In this document: piece after piece, positions 34,840 to 52,314 of the stretch
How the letters are laid out: each line of letters begins with the position of its first letter
Numbering within the stretch: the first letter of the stretch is position 1
IMG/VR virus record: IMGVR_UViG_3300024314_000002
Location: 38,535 to 102,534 of that record
DNA length: 64,000 bases
DNA from: a virus
Direction: 5' to 3' (one strand)
The notes under the pieces: model-generated
The model's input: only the letters and a program-made list of their open reading frames with translations
Told to the model about the DNA's origin: nothing
Database searches by the model: none
Program-made: the position numbers and the translations under genes

Positions 34840-35056
34840 AACTAAGTTCTACCTTTATAAGCATCTTTCAATACAACCCTCTGAACTTGAAAACATGGAA
34901 TATTATGAATTCCATTATATTGTCAAGGAGTTAATTGAAATGATTAAAGCTGAAAACGAAGCGAACAAAGGGCAAAATGATCAAACTAACGAGATGATGG
35001 GAAGTATGAAAATGCCTTCTTTCAAAATGCCAAGTTTCAACATGCCTAAAATGTAA
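34838..35056 (+). CDS. +1-frame extension of the gp26-like protein (probable frameshift product)
   Basis: In the +1 frame the sequence continues from 34838 as K-T-K-F-Y-L-Y-K-H-L, then 'LENMEYYEFHYIVKELIEMI' and a repeated 'KMPSF' tail, about 72 residues. The only ATG ahead of it in this frame (34748) lies inside the gp26-like gene with no A-rich leader, and the residues from it look like out-of-frame noise. The next ATG (34895) would drop the conserved-looking start. A +1 slip at CTT-T, as in the prfB site, would fuse the two. This mirrors G/GT-type tail chaperones before tape measures. Confidence 0.55.
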   Translation, partial: KTKFYLYKHLSIQPSELENMEYYEFHYIVKELIEMIKAENEANKGQNDQTNEMMGSMKMPSFKMPSFNMPKM

Positions 35057-35061
35057 TAGAA

Positions 35062-35090
35062 AAAGGAGGTCCTAGATTGGACCTCCTTTT
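35062..35090 (+). terminator. Rho-independent terminator
   Basis: AAAGGAGGTCC pairs with GGACCTCCTTT around a 6-nt loop, followed by T residues, directly after the frameshift ORF. Confidence 0.88.
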
Positions 35091-35095
35091 ATTTA

Positions 35096-35103
35096 GATAT
35101 ATA
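35096..35103 (+). promoter_or_regulatory. Putative late promoter box GATATATA
   Basis: It directly follows a terminator and lies 25 bp before the start at 35129, so it should start a new transcript. Confidence 0.5.
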
Positions 35104-35128
35104 CTAAAAGAAAATAACATATATTGCG

Positions 35129-35575
35129 ATGAAAAAAGTAAAATCATATAATAATTTCGTAAACGAATCTTTAATTACTGAAATTATAGATCCTATCACC
35201 TTAACATTTGCTATAGCAGGAATAGGTATAGCGTTTGGACCTGAAATCATGAAAGCATATAGATCGAGAAAAATATCTAATGCAGATCTTAAAGATCTTA
35301 CGAAGATGTTATCTAAGGCTAAAGCTAAGGCAAAGAAATATGAAAGACAAGGTCTAGATCATGATTCTGCAGAAGCACAGTCTGAAGTAGATCATATTGA
35401 AGCAAGAATAGATGATCTTCGAGGTGAAATGAGTAACCATGATGAAATTATTAAAGATTTTGAAAAGGATAAAAAGACACATAAGGAACTAGAACAGGAA
35501 CTTAAAGATGTTGATCCTGAAGTTTTAAGAAAGGCATTAAGAGATGCAAAGAAAGAAGCTTCTAAATTAAAATAA
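35129..35575 (+). CDS. Membrane-anchored coiled-coil protein with capsid-targeting-like N-terminus (148 aa)
   Basis: It begins 'MKKVKSYNNFVNESLITE', has one hydrophobic segment at about residues 22-40 ('PITLTFAIAGIGIAFGPEI') and then charged coiled coils. The architecture is a short version of the 461-aa protein at 20437. A late box lies just upstream. It may be an internal virion protein; no family recognised. Confidence 0.6.
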   Translation: MKKVKSYNNFVNESLITEIIDPITLTFAIAGIGIAFGPEIMKAYRSRKISNADLKDLTKMLSKAKAKAKKYERQGLDHDSAEAQSEVDHIEARIDDLRGEMSNHDEIIKDFEKDKKTHKELEQELKDVDPEVLRKALRDAKKEASKLK

Positions 35576-35592
35576 AAGCCCGCAATACCTAA

Positions 35593-38500
35593 ATGGCAAA
35601 CACCAACTCCGAAAAGGCGTTAATGGGATTCGCAATGAGTTCCAACTCGCTTCTGCAGAAAATAGAGGCTATAGAGAATCAAACCAGAGATACTTTATTT
35701 AGAATAGAGAGTATCATGGTTACGAGTTTCTCTGTTACACAGGGTATTGCCGCAAGTCTTACTGAAAACAACAAAATACTTAAAGAAATAAAGGAAATCA
35801 TTTCCAGAAAAAGCGAGGCTGAAAAGGCTCAATTTGGAGGTGGTGGAGGAATAAGTAAACTTCTAGGACTAGGAGGGTTTATCGCACTTACAGGAATAGG
35901 AATGTTCGGTCTAGCGATGGCATTTCAAGAAGCAGGTAAGGTAAGTCCTACGGCTATAGTTTCGGGTGTTGCTTTATTCGCAGCAATGTTCCCTATTGCA
36001 AAAATCCTAGGAGCTATAATGGCAGATCCTAGTAGTGGTGGAGTTTTTGGTCAAATCAAGGTAATGAAAAAACTAGTTTTAACAATGGGTATGTCTATGT
36101 TAATGTTAGTTGCTATGTCATTGGCATTAAACTCAATGGCACCTGTAAGTGGTGATAAATTAGTGGCCGCTCTGGCAATCGGTGCAGTTATCTATATAAT
36201 GGGTCAAACTTTCGTTCAATTAATTAAGGCATGGGAATTTTCAGGTATTATGAATTTTATGCTTAATAAGAATAACACCGATGATATTATGAGGGCCATG
36301 TTCCTTATGACTATTCAAATGGTTGTTTTAGCAGCTGCAATGAATTTAATGCCATCTGTTAAAATGGATGATGCATTTAATTTTGTAATAATATCAGCAG
36401 CAATGATACCTCTTGCAGTTGCCCTAGTTGCAATGAGATTTGCACTTCCAGCTATTGAAAAGATAAAGGTAGGCACTATTGCTAAAGCAGGTTTAGCGGT
36501 TGCAATGCTAGGATTAGCTCTAGTTCCTGTTGCGATGGCAGCGAGGCTAGTTGGTAAGGTAGGAATATCGGAACAGGAAATTTCTAGATTAGTAAGTATT
36601 ACAATGGCACTTGCACCTTTAATAGCTGTAATAGGAGTTATCACTGCAATTATTAATTTTGCAAAAGAAGGTAGAGTTAATAAATCTGCAAGTGGAGGTA
36701 ATTCTCTACTTAAACAAGATAATTCTAGAAAGAGAAATCAGAAAATGAATTTAAAAGGAATTGCAATATTTGGTCTACAAGCCGTTGTTATTCTCGGAGT
36801 ATTAGCCCTTACTGCAGTTGCCTTCAAATTTGGAGCGCCAATGATAGCAGCGGGTGCACAAGCCGCTAGGCAAATTGACATGATAGGTGTAATGAAATTA
36901 ATGTTTACATTAGGAGGATTATTATTAATAGGAGGTCTTGTAATAGGGATGACAATTAAAATGATGAAGGGTAAGCAAAAATCACAAAAAACTGGACTTA
37001 TACCAGGAATGGGATCTAGTTCAGAAAAACCAGGAGCATTATCAAAGCAAGATTTAATAGCATCCATGGTAATATTACCAATTATAGTATTATCAATGGC
37101 AGCAGCAGTTATGGCATTTAAATTAATGCCATCTATTCCTAAAATAGAAGATGGATTCTTATCGTTTGTATTTATTACAGGTATTGCAATATTTATATAC
37201 GGATTTGCAATGGCAAAGGTGTTTAGCGCATTAGCAGGTAAGTCTAAAGGTCCAGGTGCAGGAATGTTTGGTTTTGGAGGTTCATCTAAAAGAGGAAAAT
37301 TAGGTATTAAAGATATATTACTAGCGGCACTTATGGTTCCTATAGTAGCATTAGCTATTGTCGGAGCAGCTTATGTATTTCAAATGATGCCAGCTACTTC
37401 TGCGGAGATGGCACCTGATTTGATGTGGGCTTTAAAATCATCAATCGCATTAATGATATTTGGTGGAGCGATGATAATAATTGGAAAGCTTGCTAAGAAT
37501 ATGGATTTTAAAGCAGCAGCTAAAGCAATGTTAGTAGTTGCTCTTGCAGCACTAACTATATTATTGGTTGCATTTGCATTTAGTCTCGCTGGAGACATAT
37601 CTTACGGAGAAGCGCCACCACTTCCATGGTCAGTTGGTGTAGGAATAGCTCTATTTATATTAGGTGGTGTAATTTTAGCCCTTGGTGCAATTGCGACAGT
37701 AGTAACTCCTGTAGGGATATTATTAGGTGCTCTTACCGTATTAGTAGGTGCAGCTGTATTGTATGCTGTTGCATGGATATTTACACAAATTGGTAAAATT
37801 GACGGTCTTAAAGAAGCTGCTCAAACAATAACCGATGTTTTATTTATGCCATTTAATGCAATGGTAGATTTATTTAAAAGATTTAAAGATGAGATAGGAA
37901 TAGAAAACATGGGAGGACTTGCAGCTGGTATAGGCCAAATAGCACTTGCATGGATAGGTCTTTCTATGGCACTTGCTGGTTCTGCAGCATCTGGATTATT
38001 TTCTAAGCTAGCAGGAGTTGGAGGAGCAATATTAGATGGTATAACATCCTTTCTAGGAGGAGATGTAGAAATGACACCATCTCAATTATTAAAATATTTA
38101 GTTAGAAATGCTGAAAAATTAGTAGTTACTGGAAATGCAATACAAATGGTATCAAAGGCATACACTAATGTAGCGGGTATGAGTGAGGCATTTATTGCTG
38201 GAATAGCTCCATTTGGAGAATTCGTAAACAGGTTGGGAAGTTATACCGGTACTCTTGCTAGCGAAAATATGAAAGGTCTTTCTAAAGCTTATGGACAATA
38301 TGCTAAAGCTAACAATTCCTTAGACGTAACTAAAGTTGAAGCAACTACAAAGATGTTTAACGCACTTGCAGATCTTGCTAAAAATAATGGTGAAAATGCA
38401 ATGAAAGTTCTTGCTGATCAATTATTAAACGCAGTAGCACAATTATCGGATGCTGTTGCAGATCTAGATAGAGCAGTTGCTAAGCAAGGTAAATCTACTG

Positions 38501-38685
38501 GCGGATTTGGAGATGCAGTTTCTGGAGCTATTGATAAATTTAAAGAAGTAGTTACTGGAAATACCAAAAAGGTAGAAGCAATGACTCCAAAGGCCGGAAG
38601 CAATGCAGATATCATAGAAGCGATTCAAGATTTAGAAGATACATTAGTGGCTTCAGGAATCAAGATCAAGCAATCTGCATATTAA
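35593..38685 (+). CDS. Tape-measure-like protein with many hydrophobic segments (1030 aa)
   Basis: The 1030-aa protein has a coiled-coil N-terminus (about 1-80), then about a dozen hydrophobic stretches of 18-25 residues (for example 'IALTGIGMFGLAMAFQEAG', 'MLMLVAMSLALNSM') split by basic loops, then a helical amphipathic C-terminus. Length, position after the tail chaperone-like genes and helical repeats fit a tape measure, which sets tail length and can insert in the host membrane. T4 gp29 is only 590 aa and far less hydrophobic. A membrane channel of another kind is the alternative. Confidence 0.6.
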   Translation: MANTNSEKALMGFAMSSNSLLQKIEAIENQTRDTLFRIESIMVTSFSVTQGIAASLTENNKILKEIKEIISRKSEAEKAQFGGGGGISKLLGLGGFIALTGIGMFGLAMAFQEAGKVSPTAIVSGVALFAAMFPIAKILGAIMADPSSGGVFGQIKVMKKLVLTMGMSMLMLVAMSLALNSMAPVSGDKLVAALAIGAVIYIMGQTFVQLIKAWEFSGIMNFMLNKNNTDDIMRAMFLMTIQMVVLAAAMNLMPSVKMDDAFNFVIISAAMIPLAVALVAMRFALPAIEKIKVGTIAKAGLAVAMLGLALVPVAMAARLVGKVGISEQEISRLVSITMALAPLIAVIGVITAIINFAKEGRVNKSASGGNSLLKQDNSRKRNQKMNLKGIAIFGLQAVVILGVLALTAVAFKFGAPMIAAGAQAARQIDMIGVMKLMFTLGGLLLIGGLVIGMTIKMMKGKQKSQKTGLIPGMGSSSEKPGALSKQDLIASMVILPIIVLSMAAAVMAFKLMPSIPKIEDGFLSFVFITGIAIFIYGFAMAKVFSALAGKSKGPGAGMFGFGGSSKRGKLGIKDILLAALMVPIVALAIVGAAYVFQMMPATSAEMAPDLMWALKSSIALMIFGGAMIIIGKLAKNMDFKAAAKAMLVVALAALTILLVAFAFSLAGDISYGEAPPLPWSVGVGIALFILGGVILALGAIATVVTPVGILLGALTVLVGAAVLYAVAWIFTQIGKIDGLKEAAQTITDVLFMPFNAMVDLFKRFKDEIGIENMGGLAAGIGQIALAWIGLSMALAGSAASGLFSKLAGVGGAILDGITSFLGGDVEMTPSQLLKYLVRNAEKLVVTGNAIQMVSKAYTNVAGMSEAFIAGIAPFGEFVNRLGSYTGTLASENMKGLSKAYGQYAKANNSLDVTKVEATTKMFNALADLAKNNGENAMKVLADQLLNAVAQLSDAVADLDRAVAKQGKSTGGFGDAVSGAIDKFKEVVTGNTKKVEAMTPKAGSNADIIEAIQDLEDTLVASGIKIKQSAY

Positions 38686-49659: not shown

Positions 49660-50217
49660 ATGAATCATCAAGAAACATCAATAGAAAAATTAGAATCAGC
49701 TCCTCAAAGTACAACTGAGAAAGCAATCGATACTCTATTTTCTGTACTATGTTCTTCTTCTAAAAAAAGCAAGAAGATAGTTTACGTGGATATGGATGGC
49801 GTCTTAGTAGATTTACATGCAAAACTCAGAGAATATCCTGAAGACGTTGTAAAATCTCTAGGAAACGATATTGATAAATTACCTGCTCTTTTCCTCGATC
49901 CTCCTCCAATGGAAGGTGCGATTGAAGCCTTTAACATTCTTTGTTCTTTATTCGATGTGTATATTCTATCAACTGCACCTTGGGATAATCCTGAAGCTTT
50001 AATGCACAAAAGACTATGGGTTGAAAAGCATCTAGGAAAAAATGCATATAAAAGATTAATTCTTTCTCACAACAAACATTTAAATGTTGGAGACTTTTTA
50101 ATCGATGATAGAACTGCAAACGGAGCTGGTCAATTTACAGGAGAACATATTCATTTTGGAACAGAAAAATGGCCAGATTGGAAGGCTACTTTAGACTATC
50201 TTATACCTCACGCTTAA
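49660..50217 (+). CDS. 5'(3')-deoxyribonucleotidase-like HAD phosphatase
   Basis: The 185-aa protein has 'VYVDMDGVLVDL' (two catalytic D near residue 45), 'YILSTAPWDNPEALMHKRLW', 'LILSHNKHLNVGDFLIDDRT' and 'WKATLDYLI', the pattern of cytosolic 5'-nucleotidase type C. The family dephosphorylates dNMPs and may adjust pyrimidine nucleotide pools. The first 40 residues are an extra disordered leader. Its end overlaps the convergent - strand gene by 17 bp. Confidence 0.85.
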   Translation: MNHQETSIEKLESAPQSTTEKAIDTLFSVLCSSSKKSKKIVYVDMDGVLVDLHAKLREYPEDVVKSLGNDIDKLPALFLDPPPMEGAIEAFNILCSLFDVYILSTAPWDNPEALMHKRLWVEKHLGKNAYKRLILSHNKHLNVGDFLIDDRTANGAGQFTGEHIHFGTEKWPDWKATLDYLIPHA

Positions 50218-50578
50218 ATATAAGCTTAATCCAGTTATATCTTTTTCTGGATTCTAAGTATTTATAATTCTTTTCATTGGCATACGCTTCTCTTTCAAAT
50301 GAGATGTTACGGTATGCTCCGGTTCCATAGATGAACAATTTTATAAACCATTCAGTAACATATAGAATATAGAAAGGAATCACTAAAAGTTCTTCCTGCT
50401 GCTTTATATGTATAGATTCATGATTAATAATCCTCTTCGCTCTTCCTCTCCACCATTTACCAGAATCATACTTTTCTCTTAGAACGATAAAGGGCCAAAG
50501 GGTAATTCCTCCAATTGACATAAACCAGCTTACTGCGTTTAAAAATCTGTCACTATATTTAATAATCGGTGTTTTCAT
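50201..50578 (-). CDS. Membrane protein with HExxH metallopeptidase-like motif, minus strand
   Basis: The start at 50578 is preferred over one 11 codons upstream because it gives 'MKTPIIKYSDRFLNAVSWFM' and follows a GATATATA box read on this strand. Residues contain 'INHESIHIKQQEELL' (H-E-S-I-H) and a downstream 'FEREAYANE' glutamate, a zincin-like layout, with hydrophobic stretches 'FMSIGGITLWPFIVL' and 'VIPFYILYVTEWFIKLF'. Similar short proteins occur in Bacteroidetes. A peptidase activity is a guess. Confidence 0.65.
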   Translation of the reverse strand: MKTPIIKYSDRFLNAVSWFMSIGGITLWPFIVLREKYDSGKWWRGRAKRIINHESIHIKQQEELLVIPFYILYVTEWFIKLFIYGTGAYRNISFEREAYANEKNYKYLESRKRYNWIKLIFKREV

Positions 50579-50582
50579 ATAG

Positions 50583-50590
50583 TATATATC
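50583..50590 (-). promoter_or_regulatory. GATATATA box on the minus strand
   Basis: Read on the - strand, this box lies just before the ATG of the HExxH protein. A second copy facing the + strand is adjacent, making a back-to-back pair. Confidence 0.3.
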
Positions 50591-50591
50591 A

Positions 50592-50599
50592 GATATATA
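50592..50599 (+). promoter_or_regulatory. GATATATA box on the plus strand
   Basis: It lies 70 bp before the secreted protein at 50670 and could be its late promoter. Confidence 0.35.
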
Positions 50600-50669
50600 A
50601 CCTAAGCCCACGTCAGAACGCTGACATTTAACTTCTTGGGCAGAAATCTATTAAACACTTTTTTTACAA

Positions 50670-51947
50670 ATGCTGAAATACTCAATGATAGCCTTTCTGG
50701 GGCTTTTCCTAGTTACTAGCGCCTATGCGCAAACCTGTGATTTAACACTCATAAGTCAAACACCACCTGCCACAACAGAAGATGACCATTCTTTTGTAAT
50801 TGAATTTGTTAATGCAGAAAATTGTGGATGTAATGAATTTACTCAATACGATGGAAATACTTGCGATGGCAATGGGTCTAGTTCCGTAAATAATAATGAA
50901 AATGTATCTCATCTTGTTTTTGGTATTCATTATGTAAATGAAATCACTGGAGAAGACTTAGGAGAAAACACAGATTGTACTTCTACAACATTTCATCCAG
51001 GTTGGTCATATACTAATGTTACAAATTGGGGTGGTTGGGAAACTGGCGATGTTGTTACTATTAATATAAATCCACCATTTGCTTGGGAATGTATTTTAGC
51101 CACACCTCTTGAGGGATATTGTTGGGAAGTAGTAATTTGGCAAATTAATTTATCACAAACGGCAGGTTATGATGATTTTCCAGATAATGGATGGACTGTT
51201 GGCAATAGTTTTAATCAGACACAGACATATCCTGATATTAATATAGATGATAATAGAATAGCTGTTTGCTACGATCCTTGTGTACCTGACACTATAATCG
51301 AATACATTACTGATACGATTTACATAGAAACTATCGATACCCTTTATGTAACTAATACTATTATTGAATATGTAGACAATTTTATTACTGATACTCTTTA
51401 TGTAGAAACCATTGACACGGTATACGTTGATGTTGAAGTTTTCGTTGAGGTTTTTATCACCGATACTATTACTGAAATTGAGTACATTACAGAATATGTT
51501 ACTGACACTCTTTTTATTACAACTGTCGATACAGTTGAAGTTATTGTATATGAATTCTTAACAGATACGGTTTATGAGTATATTTCTATTGATTGTGAAA
51601 CTGGATTAGAATGTATTGATGATCCTGGATTAACTTGCCCAGATTGGACTTCAGTTTATCTTCCAAATACATTTACACCAAATAATGATGGTTTAAATGA
51701 TACATGGCAAATGGTTTATGATTTAGAATGTTGGGTCGATGTAGAATTTAAAATATTTAATAGATGGGGTGACATGATCTATTCAGGTATGGGTGATTAT
51801 TACGATTCATATCCTTATTGGGATGGAAGTGTAAATGGTGGTAATCACTATGCATCTGATGGCGTTTACACATATACGTTCTACGCAAGAAAATTAAACT
51901 CAACCGAAATCTTTCAAAGACACGGACATATAACAATATTTAGATAA
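50670..51947 (+). CDS. Secreted surface protein with CHU_C / type IX secretion sorting domain
   Basis: The 425-aa protein has a signal peptide ('MLKYSMIAFLGLFLVTSAYA' then Q), a cysteine-bearing beta domain (about 22-205), a threonine/aspartate-rich repeat zone (about 208-308, units like 'TDTLYVETIDTVYV'), and a C-terminal domain (about 329-425) with 'YLPNTFTPNNDGLNDTW', 'FKIFNRWGDMIYSG' and 'YTFYARKL', the gliding-motility-associated CHU_C (T9SS type B) signature. Bacteroidetes use it to export surface proteins. A phage copy would display a protein on the infected cell, perhaps to block other phages or change adhesion. Confidence 0.88.
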   Translation: MLKYSMIAFLGLFLVTSAYAQTCDLTLISQTPPATTEDDHSFVIEFVNAENCGCNEFTQYDGNTCDGNGSSSVNNNENVSHLVFGIHYVNEITGEDLGENTDCTSTTFHPGWSYTNVTNWGGWETGDVVTININPPFAWECILATPLEGYCWEVVIWQINLSQTAGYDDFPDNGWTVGNSFNQTQTYPDINIDDNRIAVCYDPCVPDTIIEYITDTIYIETIDTLYVTNTIIEYVDNFITDTLYVETIDTVYVDVEVFVEVFITDTITEIEYITEYVTDTLFITTVDTVEVIVYEFLTDTVYEYISIDCETGLECIDDPGLTCPDWTSVYLPNTFTPNNDGLNDTWQMVYDLECWVDVEFKIFNRWGDMIYSGMGDYYDSYPYWDGSVNGGNHYASDGVYTYTFYARKLNSTEIFQRHGHITIFR

Positions 51948-51948
51948 C

Positions 51949-52314
51949 ATGAAATCATTACTTATTTCCTTATTATTTCTTTTACCATTTTACACAGTAG
52001 CACAATGCAATCAACATGTTTTTTCCTCAGTCGGAGCTGAGAAATGGACTAACTTCCAATATCAAGACTGTGATGGATGGAATCATTACTTTGGTCTTCC
52101 CGCTGGAGGATATACTATAATCTTTTGTGCAGATATTGGCACCGCTTTTGTTTTAAATGGGGATGGATTTGTATTTCCTTTGGCGAATGAACACCCCAAT
52201 TACGCTTCCTGTATTCAACCAGAAACTGAATGTGAAGGTGATTTTGATGGAGATGGAATAGTAGGAGCAGAGGATCTTCTTACCTTTTTATCAAACTACG
52301 GTATGTGTGAATAA
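51949..52314 (+). CDS. Secreted protein with dockerin/EF-hand-like C-terminus (121 aa)
   Basis: A signal peptide (residues 1-19, 'SLLISLLFLLPFYTVAQ') is followed by a cysteine-rich domain and a calcium-binding type I repeat at about 98-111 ('DFDGDGIVGAEDLL') near the C-terminus. Such 'GDFDGDG...DLLTFLSNYG' ends are common on Bacteroidetes secreted proteins. It starts 2 bp after the CHU_C protein, so the two are made together and may interact on the cell surface. Confidence 0.78.
   Translation: MKSLLISLLFLLPFYTVAQCNQHVFSSVGAEKWTNFQYQDCDGWNHYFGLPAGGYTIIFCADIGTAFVLNGDGFVFPLANEHPNYASCIQPETECEGDFDGDGIVGAEDLLTFLSNYGMCE

Follow-up and report, generated by a model that had tools for sequence, protein, structure and literature searches.

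The window, a stretch of 64,000 nucleotides that was analysed as a whole, covers positions 38535-102534 of the 102,534-base virus record IMGVR_UViG_3300024314_000002. It contains genes for a portal, a head maturation protease, a major head protein, a large terminase and a tail sheath, which indicate that the record is a phage, and it also matches tail tube and baseplate-type families. The named head and tail genes are found at 14612-35053; apart from them lie two adjoining genes, cargo and partner, here termed the cassette, whose features are collected in Table 1. The first codes for a protein resembling type B cargo of the type IX secretion system (T9SS), with a head and a C-terminal sorting domain (CTD), and the second for a small protein with a start of the same kind. 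Directly upstream of the cassette, the minus strand carries a gene (50201-50611) whose 136-aa product matches phrog_15610 'protease'; ORF 35593-38685 reads by eye like a tape measure protein and has no PHROG match.

Table 1. Features of the cargo and partner genes, in positions of the window
Feature	Position	Strand	Basis
T9SS type B cargo-like protein gene, 425 aa	50670..51947	+	ORF from ATG to stop; domain searches
Signal-peptide-like start, residues 1-20 (putative cleavage after ..AYA, before Q)	50670..50729	+	rule-based scan; cleavage site by eye
Segment without DNA match in L016, L021 and L092	50679..51354	+	codon 4 to about 229; right edge 51387 in L092
Head (N) domain, residues 21-204	50730..51281	+	alignment A3; model
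DT/VY-rich repeat linker, residues 205-306	51282..51587	+	motif count; pLDDT <50 over 202-303
Conserved IDCxTGxxC motif, residues 307-315	51588..51614	+	alignment
CHU_C / T9SS type B sorting domain, residues 331-425	51660..51944	+	PF13585, TIGR04131, CTD-like fold
Partner gene, 121 aa, 1 base past the cargo stop codon	51949..52314	+	ORF; recurrence at loci
Partner signal-peptide-like start, residues 1-18	51949..52002	+	rule-based; cleavage site by eye
Partner dockerin-like tail with a single Ca loop, residues 95-119	52231..52305	+	profile A1 vs PDB

The original prediction had placed a CHU_C domain at the C-terminus and proposed an HMM search as a check; both profiles lie well above their cut-offs, since residues 331-408 match PF13585 (CHU_C) with an E value of 1.2e-13 and 51.4 bits against a curated cut-off of 27, and residues 331-423 match TIGR04131 (E 8.3e-11, 41.9 bits, cut-off 35). 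The domain is at the very end of the protein, the TIGR04131 match ending at residue 423 of 425, and it occurs a single time across the whole 102,534-base record; a CHU_C search of 14 control genomes gave no matches. Its assignment to T9SS sorting is also supported, the domain being conserved as in T9SS type B cargo: the CTD motifs PN-(T/S)PN-D and NRWG are present in 47/47 aligned sequences, the one of the window included, and PN-(T/S)PN-D..ND together with NRWG is retained in all 68 distinct full-length proteins found in the survey described below, while a third motif, GxYxY, is found in 36 of the 47 and a motif similar to IDCxTGxxC in 58 of the 68. The invariance of the first two motifs in the 47 sequences and the low dN/dS values reported below indicate that the features of this gene are not due to chance.

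CHU_C is the only Pfam family matched at E up to 1, with no Por_Secre_tail (PF18962), and no PHROG family, structural ones included, is matched at E up to 0.01. The N domain, which has neither a Pfam nor a PHROG match, is Cys-rich, mostly beta in the model, and bears the motifs ENCGCNEFT and WQINLS. A repeat-rich middle had also been predicted, and a regular repeat is indeed present, with DT at residues 207, 215, 223, 241, 249, 265, 279, 287 and 299 and five of the eight steps equal to 8 or 16 residues; the adhesin-like character ascribed to it is putative, the repeat being a low-confidence stretch of the model, and effects of the protein on adhesion, exclusion or motility are likewise putative.

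Signal peptides were called with simple rules of our own, not with SignalP. When the stricter rule was applied to the whole record, five ORFs of at least 70 aa passed, the cargo and the adjoining partner among them; a slightly looser rule was passed by 56/62 distinct CHU proteins and 43/44 partner proteins, versus 58/812 other ORFs.

The full-length cargo model is poor (mean pLDDT 56.9), the N domain lying between 37 and 85 by blocks, the CTD between 68 and 84 and the repeat below 50; for the partner a fair model was obtained, with a mean of 82.2 against 51-63 for its four other models. The modelled CTD aligns with the T9SS CTDs of NucA (8glk_D; Z 7.4, rmsd 2.1, 74/75 aligned) and RemA (8gl6_D; Z 6.4, rmsd 2.5, 75/76 aligned), values that are not proof, because a Z below 8 can mean a common arrangement according to the tool's own note; the entries ranked above these two are mostly other beta-sandwich proteins. 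The matched CTDs include a type A one (RemA), and for type B CTDs no structure has been solved according to the available text of PMC12618676. The head model aligns weakly with the agarose-binding module 8wac (Z 6.8, rmsd 4.4, 112 aligned). Profile A2 matched no solved structure at E up to 0.1, Foldseek gave no match at E 0.001 or better for the cargo and partner models, and the partner model matched none of 996 chains (VIA) at a Z of at least 5; such absent matches do not show a new fold.

The partner gene had escaped the original prediction, which likewise went without the exchange of heads, the spread over unrelated phages and the earlier reports of phage T9SS cargo. Searched with profile A1 against the PDB, residues 95-119 of the partner match the dockerin 2y3n_B over 25 residues (E 4.9e-5); by eye this tail has one Ca loop and not two, no Pfam dockerin family is matched at E up to 1, and Pfam returns only sub-cut-off EF-hand matches. 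An alignment of 25 partner sequences contains 20 invariant positions, six of which are cysteines. When used to scan viral contigs, the alignment retrieved 61 loci, while a scan of 84,980 species genomes, performed with exact short patterns that distant host relatives could escape, gave one confirmed locus, L141 (WLWP01000006.1), in a metagenome-assembled genome (MAG) named Pseudomonadales. This locus belongs to a phage contig, because the podophage locus L077 has matches to 16 of the 39 ORFs, those of the cassette among them; its place in a Pseudomonadales MAG is likely due to mis-binning.

The presence of the partner tends to follow the type of head. It lies within 3 kb and on the same strand for 45/56 distinct N-domain proteins, a fraction biased upward by the fact that loci were fetched with either the cargo or the partner protein, versus 0/5 proteins without N domain; no partner is found within 3 kb of the remaining 11/56, five of which have little flank. 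At loci fetched with the cargo protein, the partner is found within six genes in 36 of 57, a set that includes two huge phages and the record of the window itself and from which near-duplicates were left out. In the relative G018 exactly the partner gene is absent (376 bases in the window vs 3), and the N domain is gone too. We infer from this co-occurrence a joint function of partner and N domain, to which 11 proteins remain exceptions. The order of the genes is variable: in the window phage and its near relatives the cargo comes first and the partner second, and in the podophage lineage the partner precedes the cargo. Further genes can be found amid the two, such as that for an 829-aa DUF285/BspA-type leucine-rich repeat protein in L130 (6297-8786), its 429-aa relative with 57% identity in L141 (10297-11586), and a DUF5675 protein that separates partner from cargo in some podophages (L031, 7709-8188).

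Relatives of the cassette were searched in viral contigs. The scan with the window protein gave 92 confirmed loci and that with the head-domain alignment 94, 80 being kept in each case; together with the loci from the partner scan, the record itself and L141, they provided 68 distinct full-length proteins, grouped in 56 clusters at 90% and 20 at 70% identity. CHU_C exceeds the cut-off in 48 of the 50 records searched (from 82 loci), and 46 of them, up to 178,737 bases long, contain just one; the exceptions are the 642-kb W01, with three, G011, with a second, sub-cut-off match, and G006 and G021, which end inside the gene. A bacterial origin of the contigs was considered and rejected in view of the 46/50 records with a single CHU_C and of the hallmark phage genes in long records; for many short contigs the viral status is given by the IMG/VR classification and synteny alone.

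The carriers belong to distinct lineages. By its major head protein, the window phage is nearest to an uncultured 462-kb phage (52% identity), followed by Prevotella Lak phages (about 38%), and a relative of this protein is found in 10/50 records, with identities from 100% down to 28%. A second lineage is characterized by a terminase (phrog_6681) and a portal (phrog_6547) downstream of the cassette, one representative of each having been scanned; the terminase is nearest to that of an uncultured Podoviridae record (70%), then to those of Flavobacterium, Cellulophaga, Tenacibaculum and Maribacter phages. Thus, cassette relatives are found both in contractile-tailed phages, as the window phage is, and in podophages near Flavobacterium/Cellulophaga phages, and in many of the latter the cassette lies just upstream of the terminase and portal genes. 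Conversely, in 28 further records with a relative of the major head protein, picked mostly for length among the best 80 matches listed, none reaches the CHU_C cut-off (0/28); this is a lower bound, since the contigs may be pieces and at least one of the 28, L165, shares its sample number with L016 and may be a further part of a carrier genome. In one of the 28 records a sub-cut-off CHU_C match of 22.7 bits lies in an 861-aa frame (G085:C1:31530-31694). The two lineages, the differing gene order and the 0/28 count make the cassette look accessory and mobile.

As to the hosts, the plasmid matches of the cargo CTD fall in Bacteroidota in 9/9 records. Among INPHARED phages, the window protein has only matches of its CHU_C end, in two huge uncultured phages, and a podophage member retrieves the same two records, while the partner and a type A cargo protein retrieve none; an isolate usable as a named example was therefore not found. 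Both huge phages encode a CHU_C-type protein, of 1670 aa in LR756502.1 (L082, 642 kb) and of 832 aa in LR745206.1 (L083, 635 kb), and type A domains are present in these phages as well.

Different heads are found on the same backbone. The N domain is present in 63/68 distinct proteins and the other five carry a second domain only, as counted with our own profile and short motif patterns; in three distinct proteins a HEMGH-bearing region plus the N domain precede the same backbone, and L065, the one of the three that was scanned, matches Peptidase_M43 (PF05572) with 64 bits against a cut-off of 23. Among the 80 loci kept of the 94 from the head-domain scan, 75 N-domain ORFs have CHU_C and the other five are cut by the contig end. 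The names 'CARDB-like', for the second domain, and 'GCxD repeat' are working labels for which no family is claimed; in L016 and L048 Pfam matches CHU_C alone.

Comparison of closely related contigs locates the change precisely. The window and L016 are collinear at 96% identity as far as 50678, the ninth base of the gene, with similarity resuming at 51355 at 97%; the corresponding values are 85% up to 50678 and 79% from 51355 for L021, and 93% up to 50678 and 88% from 51387 for L092. Amid these edges, the signal peptide included, no blastn match is found and the lengths differ. In two of the three comparisons no unmatched stretch is longer than the head, and in the third only one is; smaller unmatched stretches occur elsewhere in all three, so that the head is not the sole variable place. 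By profile, the N domain is still recognisable in the heads of L016 and L092 (E 2.5e-71 and 1e-69), which are far diverged and followed by a further domain, but not in that of L021. In L005 the pattern is reversed, with 99.7% identity from 50591 onward and a different left flank. Rates inside the gene are discordant, as expected for a mosaic: dS is 0.32 for the head and 1.28 for the CTD in L008, and 2.28 and 0, respectively, in L016. Moreover, in seven contigs of the window phage group, with lengths from 32,886 to 169,565 bases, the sequence breaks off within the cargo gene: four times at base 51003, once at 50907, and twice, with different heads, at 51628. Such breaks are expected when coexisting alleles are assembled, the ends being non-independent because the samples are related. 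These genome comparisons show that phages exchange heads and that the sorting unit stays. In the same three comparisons a search for an exchanged receptor-binding gene linked to the head exchange gave none; for G013 the longest stretch lacking a match, 35016-38395, covers the tape-measure-like ORF, with flanks about 86 and 95% identical, and G018 and G052 have no gap at this ORF. As judged from dN/dS in L006 (head 0.022, whole cargo gene 0.072, partner 0.057), the head is under purifying selection.

Type B CTDs require PorP/SprF shuttles, which are specific, and surface anchoring is possible; CTD and shuttle determine whether the cargo joins the gliding machinery or is statically anchored (PMC12618676), and PorP-like proteins bind type B cargo at the surface (PMC9143113). 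In Flavobacterium johnsoniae a PorP/SprF gene is found near 9/12 type B cargo genes; this arrangement is not universal, and three orphan cargos share an unlinked shuttle (PMC12618676). A PorP/SprF search of 47 phage records, which may be fragments, came back empty, with no control giving a match, and so did one of nine phage records (eight among the 47) in which the control matched in 2/3 Bacteroidota plasmids, one of these having a CHU_C gene that adjoins the PorP/SprF gene; the record of the window also had none. Together, the searches cover 49 phage records, many of them fragmentary. The phage protein would therefore need a host shuttle, like the orphan type B cargos; if the phage supplies none, its export might be poor, shuttles being specific (PMC12618676). 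The sorting signal of type B cargo is not always confined to the conserved domain and may be as long as 235 aa, and secretion of SprB depends on five motifs, A-E (PMC12618676); the last ~197 residues, kept as a unit in the exchanges, fit a sorting signal longer than CHU_C.

To the reading that we prefer a probability of roughly 0.5 is given: the two genes would form a modular cassette for surface display, which the host T9SS would export during infection, with receptor masking or superinfection exclusion as its likeliest purpose. An infected cell would then probably show phage-chosen proteins on its surface. Cargo and partner likely exit the cytoplasm via the host Sec machinery, judging from their starts, after which, by CHU_C homology, the host T9SS likely moves the cargo across the outer membrane, where a PorP/SprF-like shuttle of the host would receive it; this sequence of Sec exit and T9SS export with a host shuttle is held with high confidence. 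Somewhat less firm, and still rather probable, is the step at the surface: from work on type B CTDs, the cargo is predicted to be anchored with its head outward on the DT-rich linker, and the 121-aa partner would act with N-type heads, perhaps as a Ca-stabilised secreted adaptor. Recombination swaps the head from the start codon to the repeat, leaving the linker end and the sorting domain, as the contig comparisons show. The displayed head would then mask or alter a surface receptor, or displace receptor adhesins from the T9SS; other phages could then no longer enter the infected cell, and phage progeny would be kept from sticking to debris. This purpose, drawn by analogy, is favoured and speculative, and we hold it tentatively; it is preferred since gliding and T9SS proteins have a role in the adsorption of certain phages infecting Cellulophaga and its relatives, and SprB and RemA have been named as possible phage receptors (PMC13288928).

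The displayed or released proteins could instead serve as an extracellular tool that binds or cuts outside material (glycans, neighbours, particles), aiding dispersal or virion retention, with head variants fitting different surfaces. The HEMGH region of three proteins, with the Peptidase_M43 match of 64 bits in L065, the weak alignment of the head to 8wac, and type A T9SS domains (PF18962) in 11/47 records, one of them on a podophage 680-aa protein, all speak for this reading; the fold match is weak, however, and the peptidase motif is absent in 65/68 distinct proteins, which leaves it unlikely, if worth keeping in mind.

Decidedly improbable is that the protein belongs to the virion, in which case CHU_C would be an Ig-like fold taken over to decorate the particle or to bind parts of the host T9SS, and the hydrophobic start would not work as a signal peptide. 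Ig-like domains are common on virions, and the cargo may be in the virion, given that many podophage relatives have the cassette directly upstream of terminase and portal; the enrichment of signal-peptide-like starts in both families, the two invariant C-terminal motifs and the distance of the cassette from the named head and tail genes in the window phage stand against it. The original statement that this is not an ordinary virion part thus agrees with the layout of the window phage and less well with that of the podophages.

An equally small chance is given to a jamming of the T9SS, in which the cargo would occupy SprA or the PorP/SprF shuttle and keep receptor adhesins such as SprB off the surface, the head being secondary. 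The sorting domain is the part common to all relatives, the phages would compete for the host shuttle since none of their own was found, and SprB and RemA are the possible receptors named above (PMC13288928); conversely, the strong purifying selection on the head (dN/dS 0.022 in L006) is contrary to expectation, the head is exchanged as a unit, and the partner is left unexplained. That the gene is a host surface gene acquired by phages to no benefit of theirs agrees with its patchy presence (0/28 head-protein relatives at the cut-off) and is nevertheless very hard to believe, given the low dN/dS, the same partner across unrelated phages, and the finding of this partner in one species genome only, itself a phage contig.

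The surface-display reading can be compared with known systems. That phages encode T9SS cargo is already published (PMC7468147, PMC6949934). Cryophage, a 76-kb phage, has three variable type A T9SS cargo genes, which differ among variants of this one phage and for which superinfection exclusion or inter-strain competition was proposed; there, type A domains are found on an endoglucanase, a GH39 and a PA14 protein (PMC7468147), whereas here a type B CHU_C is part of a recurrent two-gene cassette with a kept sorting unit, found in unrelated phage lineages. Gut BACON phages, with presumed Bacteroidota hosts, also encode T9SS-tagged proteins near head genes, mentioned in passing with BACON domains; the available part of that paper describes neither a partner nor an exchange of heads (PMC6949934). 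Type B cargo of F. johnsoniae, e.g. SprB, has the same architecture of a Sec start and a C-terminal TIGR04131/CHU_C (PMC12618676, PMC9143113); the present protein differs in being phage-encoded, with no PorP/SprF found alongside, a small head and a 121-aa partner. An analogy, by inference, is offered by Llp of phage T5, an exported phage protein that shuts a receptor in the host envelope (PMC9586334); it is a periplasmic lipoprotein, and the likeness is functional, with no homology claimed.

In the open-access literature, subscription papers and preprints aside, no report of a phage type B cargo, of the partner or of the head exchange was found, and type B sorting, the partner and the exchange of heads on a fixed sorting unit appear to be new. 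It is conceivable, with a chance a little short of even, that they represent a general platform for repainting the host surface, made up of an invariable type B sorting unit, a secreted partner that recurs with one class of heads, and a set of exchangeable heads (N domain, second domain, M43 peptidase and combinations) that unrelated Bacteroidota phages share through recombination, and running entirely on host Sec, T9SS and shuttle proteins. If true, phage competition would be linked to gliding and to the T9SS adhesins implicated in flavobacterial phage adsorption (PMC13288928), the exchangeable head would provide a natural allele set for testing what is recognised, and the sorting unit would amount to a T9SS tag evolved by phages and working without its own shuttle.

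The type A T9SS domains (PF18962) are spread over several lineages. In podophage relatives they are found on proteins of 680-744 aa with a signal-peptide-like start (L047:17097-19139, L053:18903-21134, L030:4458-6596), that of L047, 680 aa long, matching Por_Secre_tail with 42.3 bits against a cut-off of 27. Close to their type A cargo genes, L047 (19339-20376) and L030 (2189-3232) encode proteins of 345-347 aa, also with a signal-peptide-like start, which by eye are outer-membrane barrel-like, the L047 copy being without Pfam match. Finally, minus-strand type A T9SS domains lie a few kb left of the cassette in the records of L005 (G004:C1:25023-25238) and L094 (G053:C1:2439-2654), which are the two with the alternative left flank.
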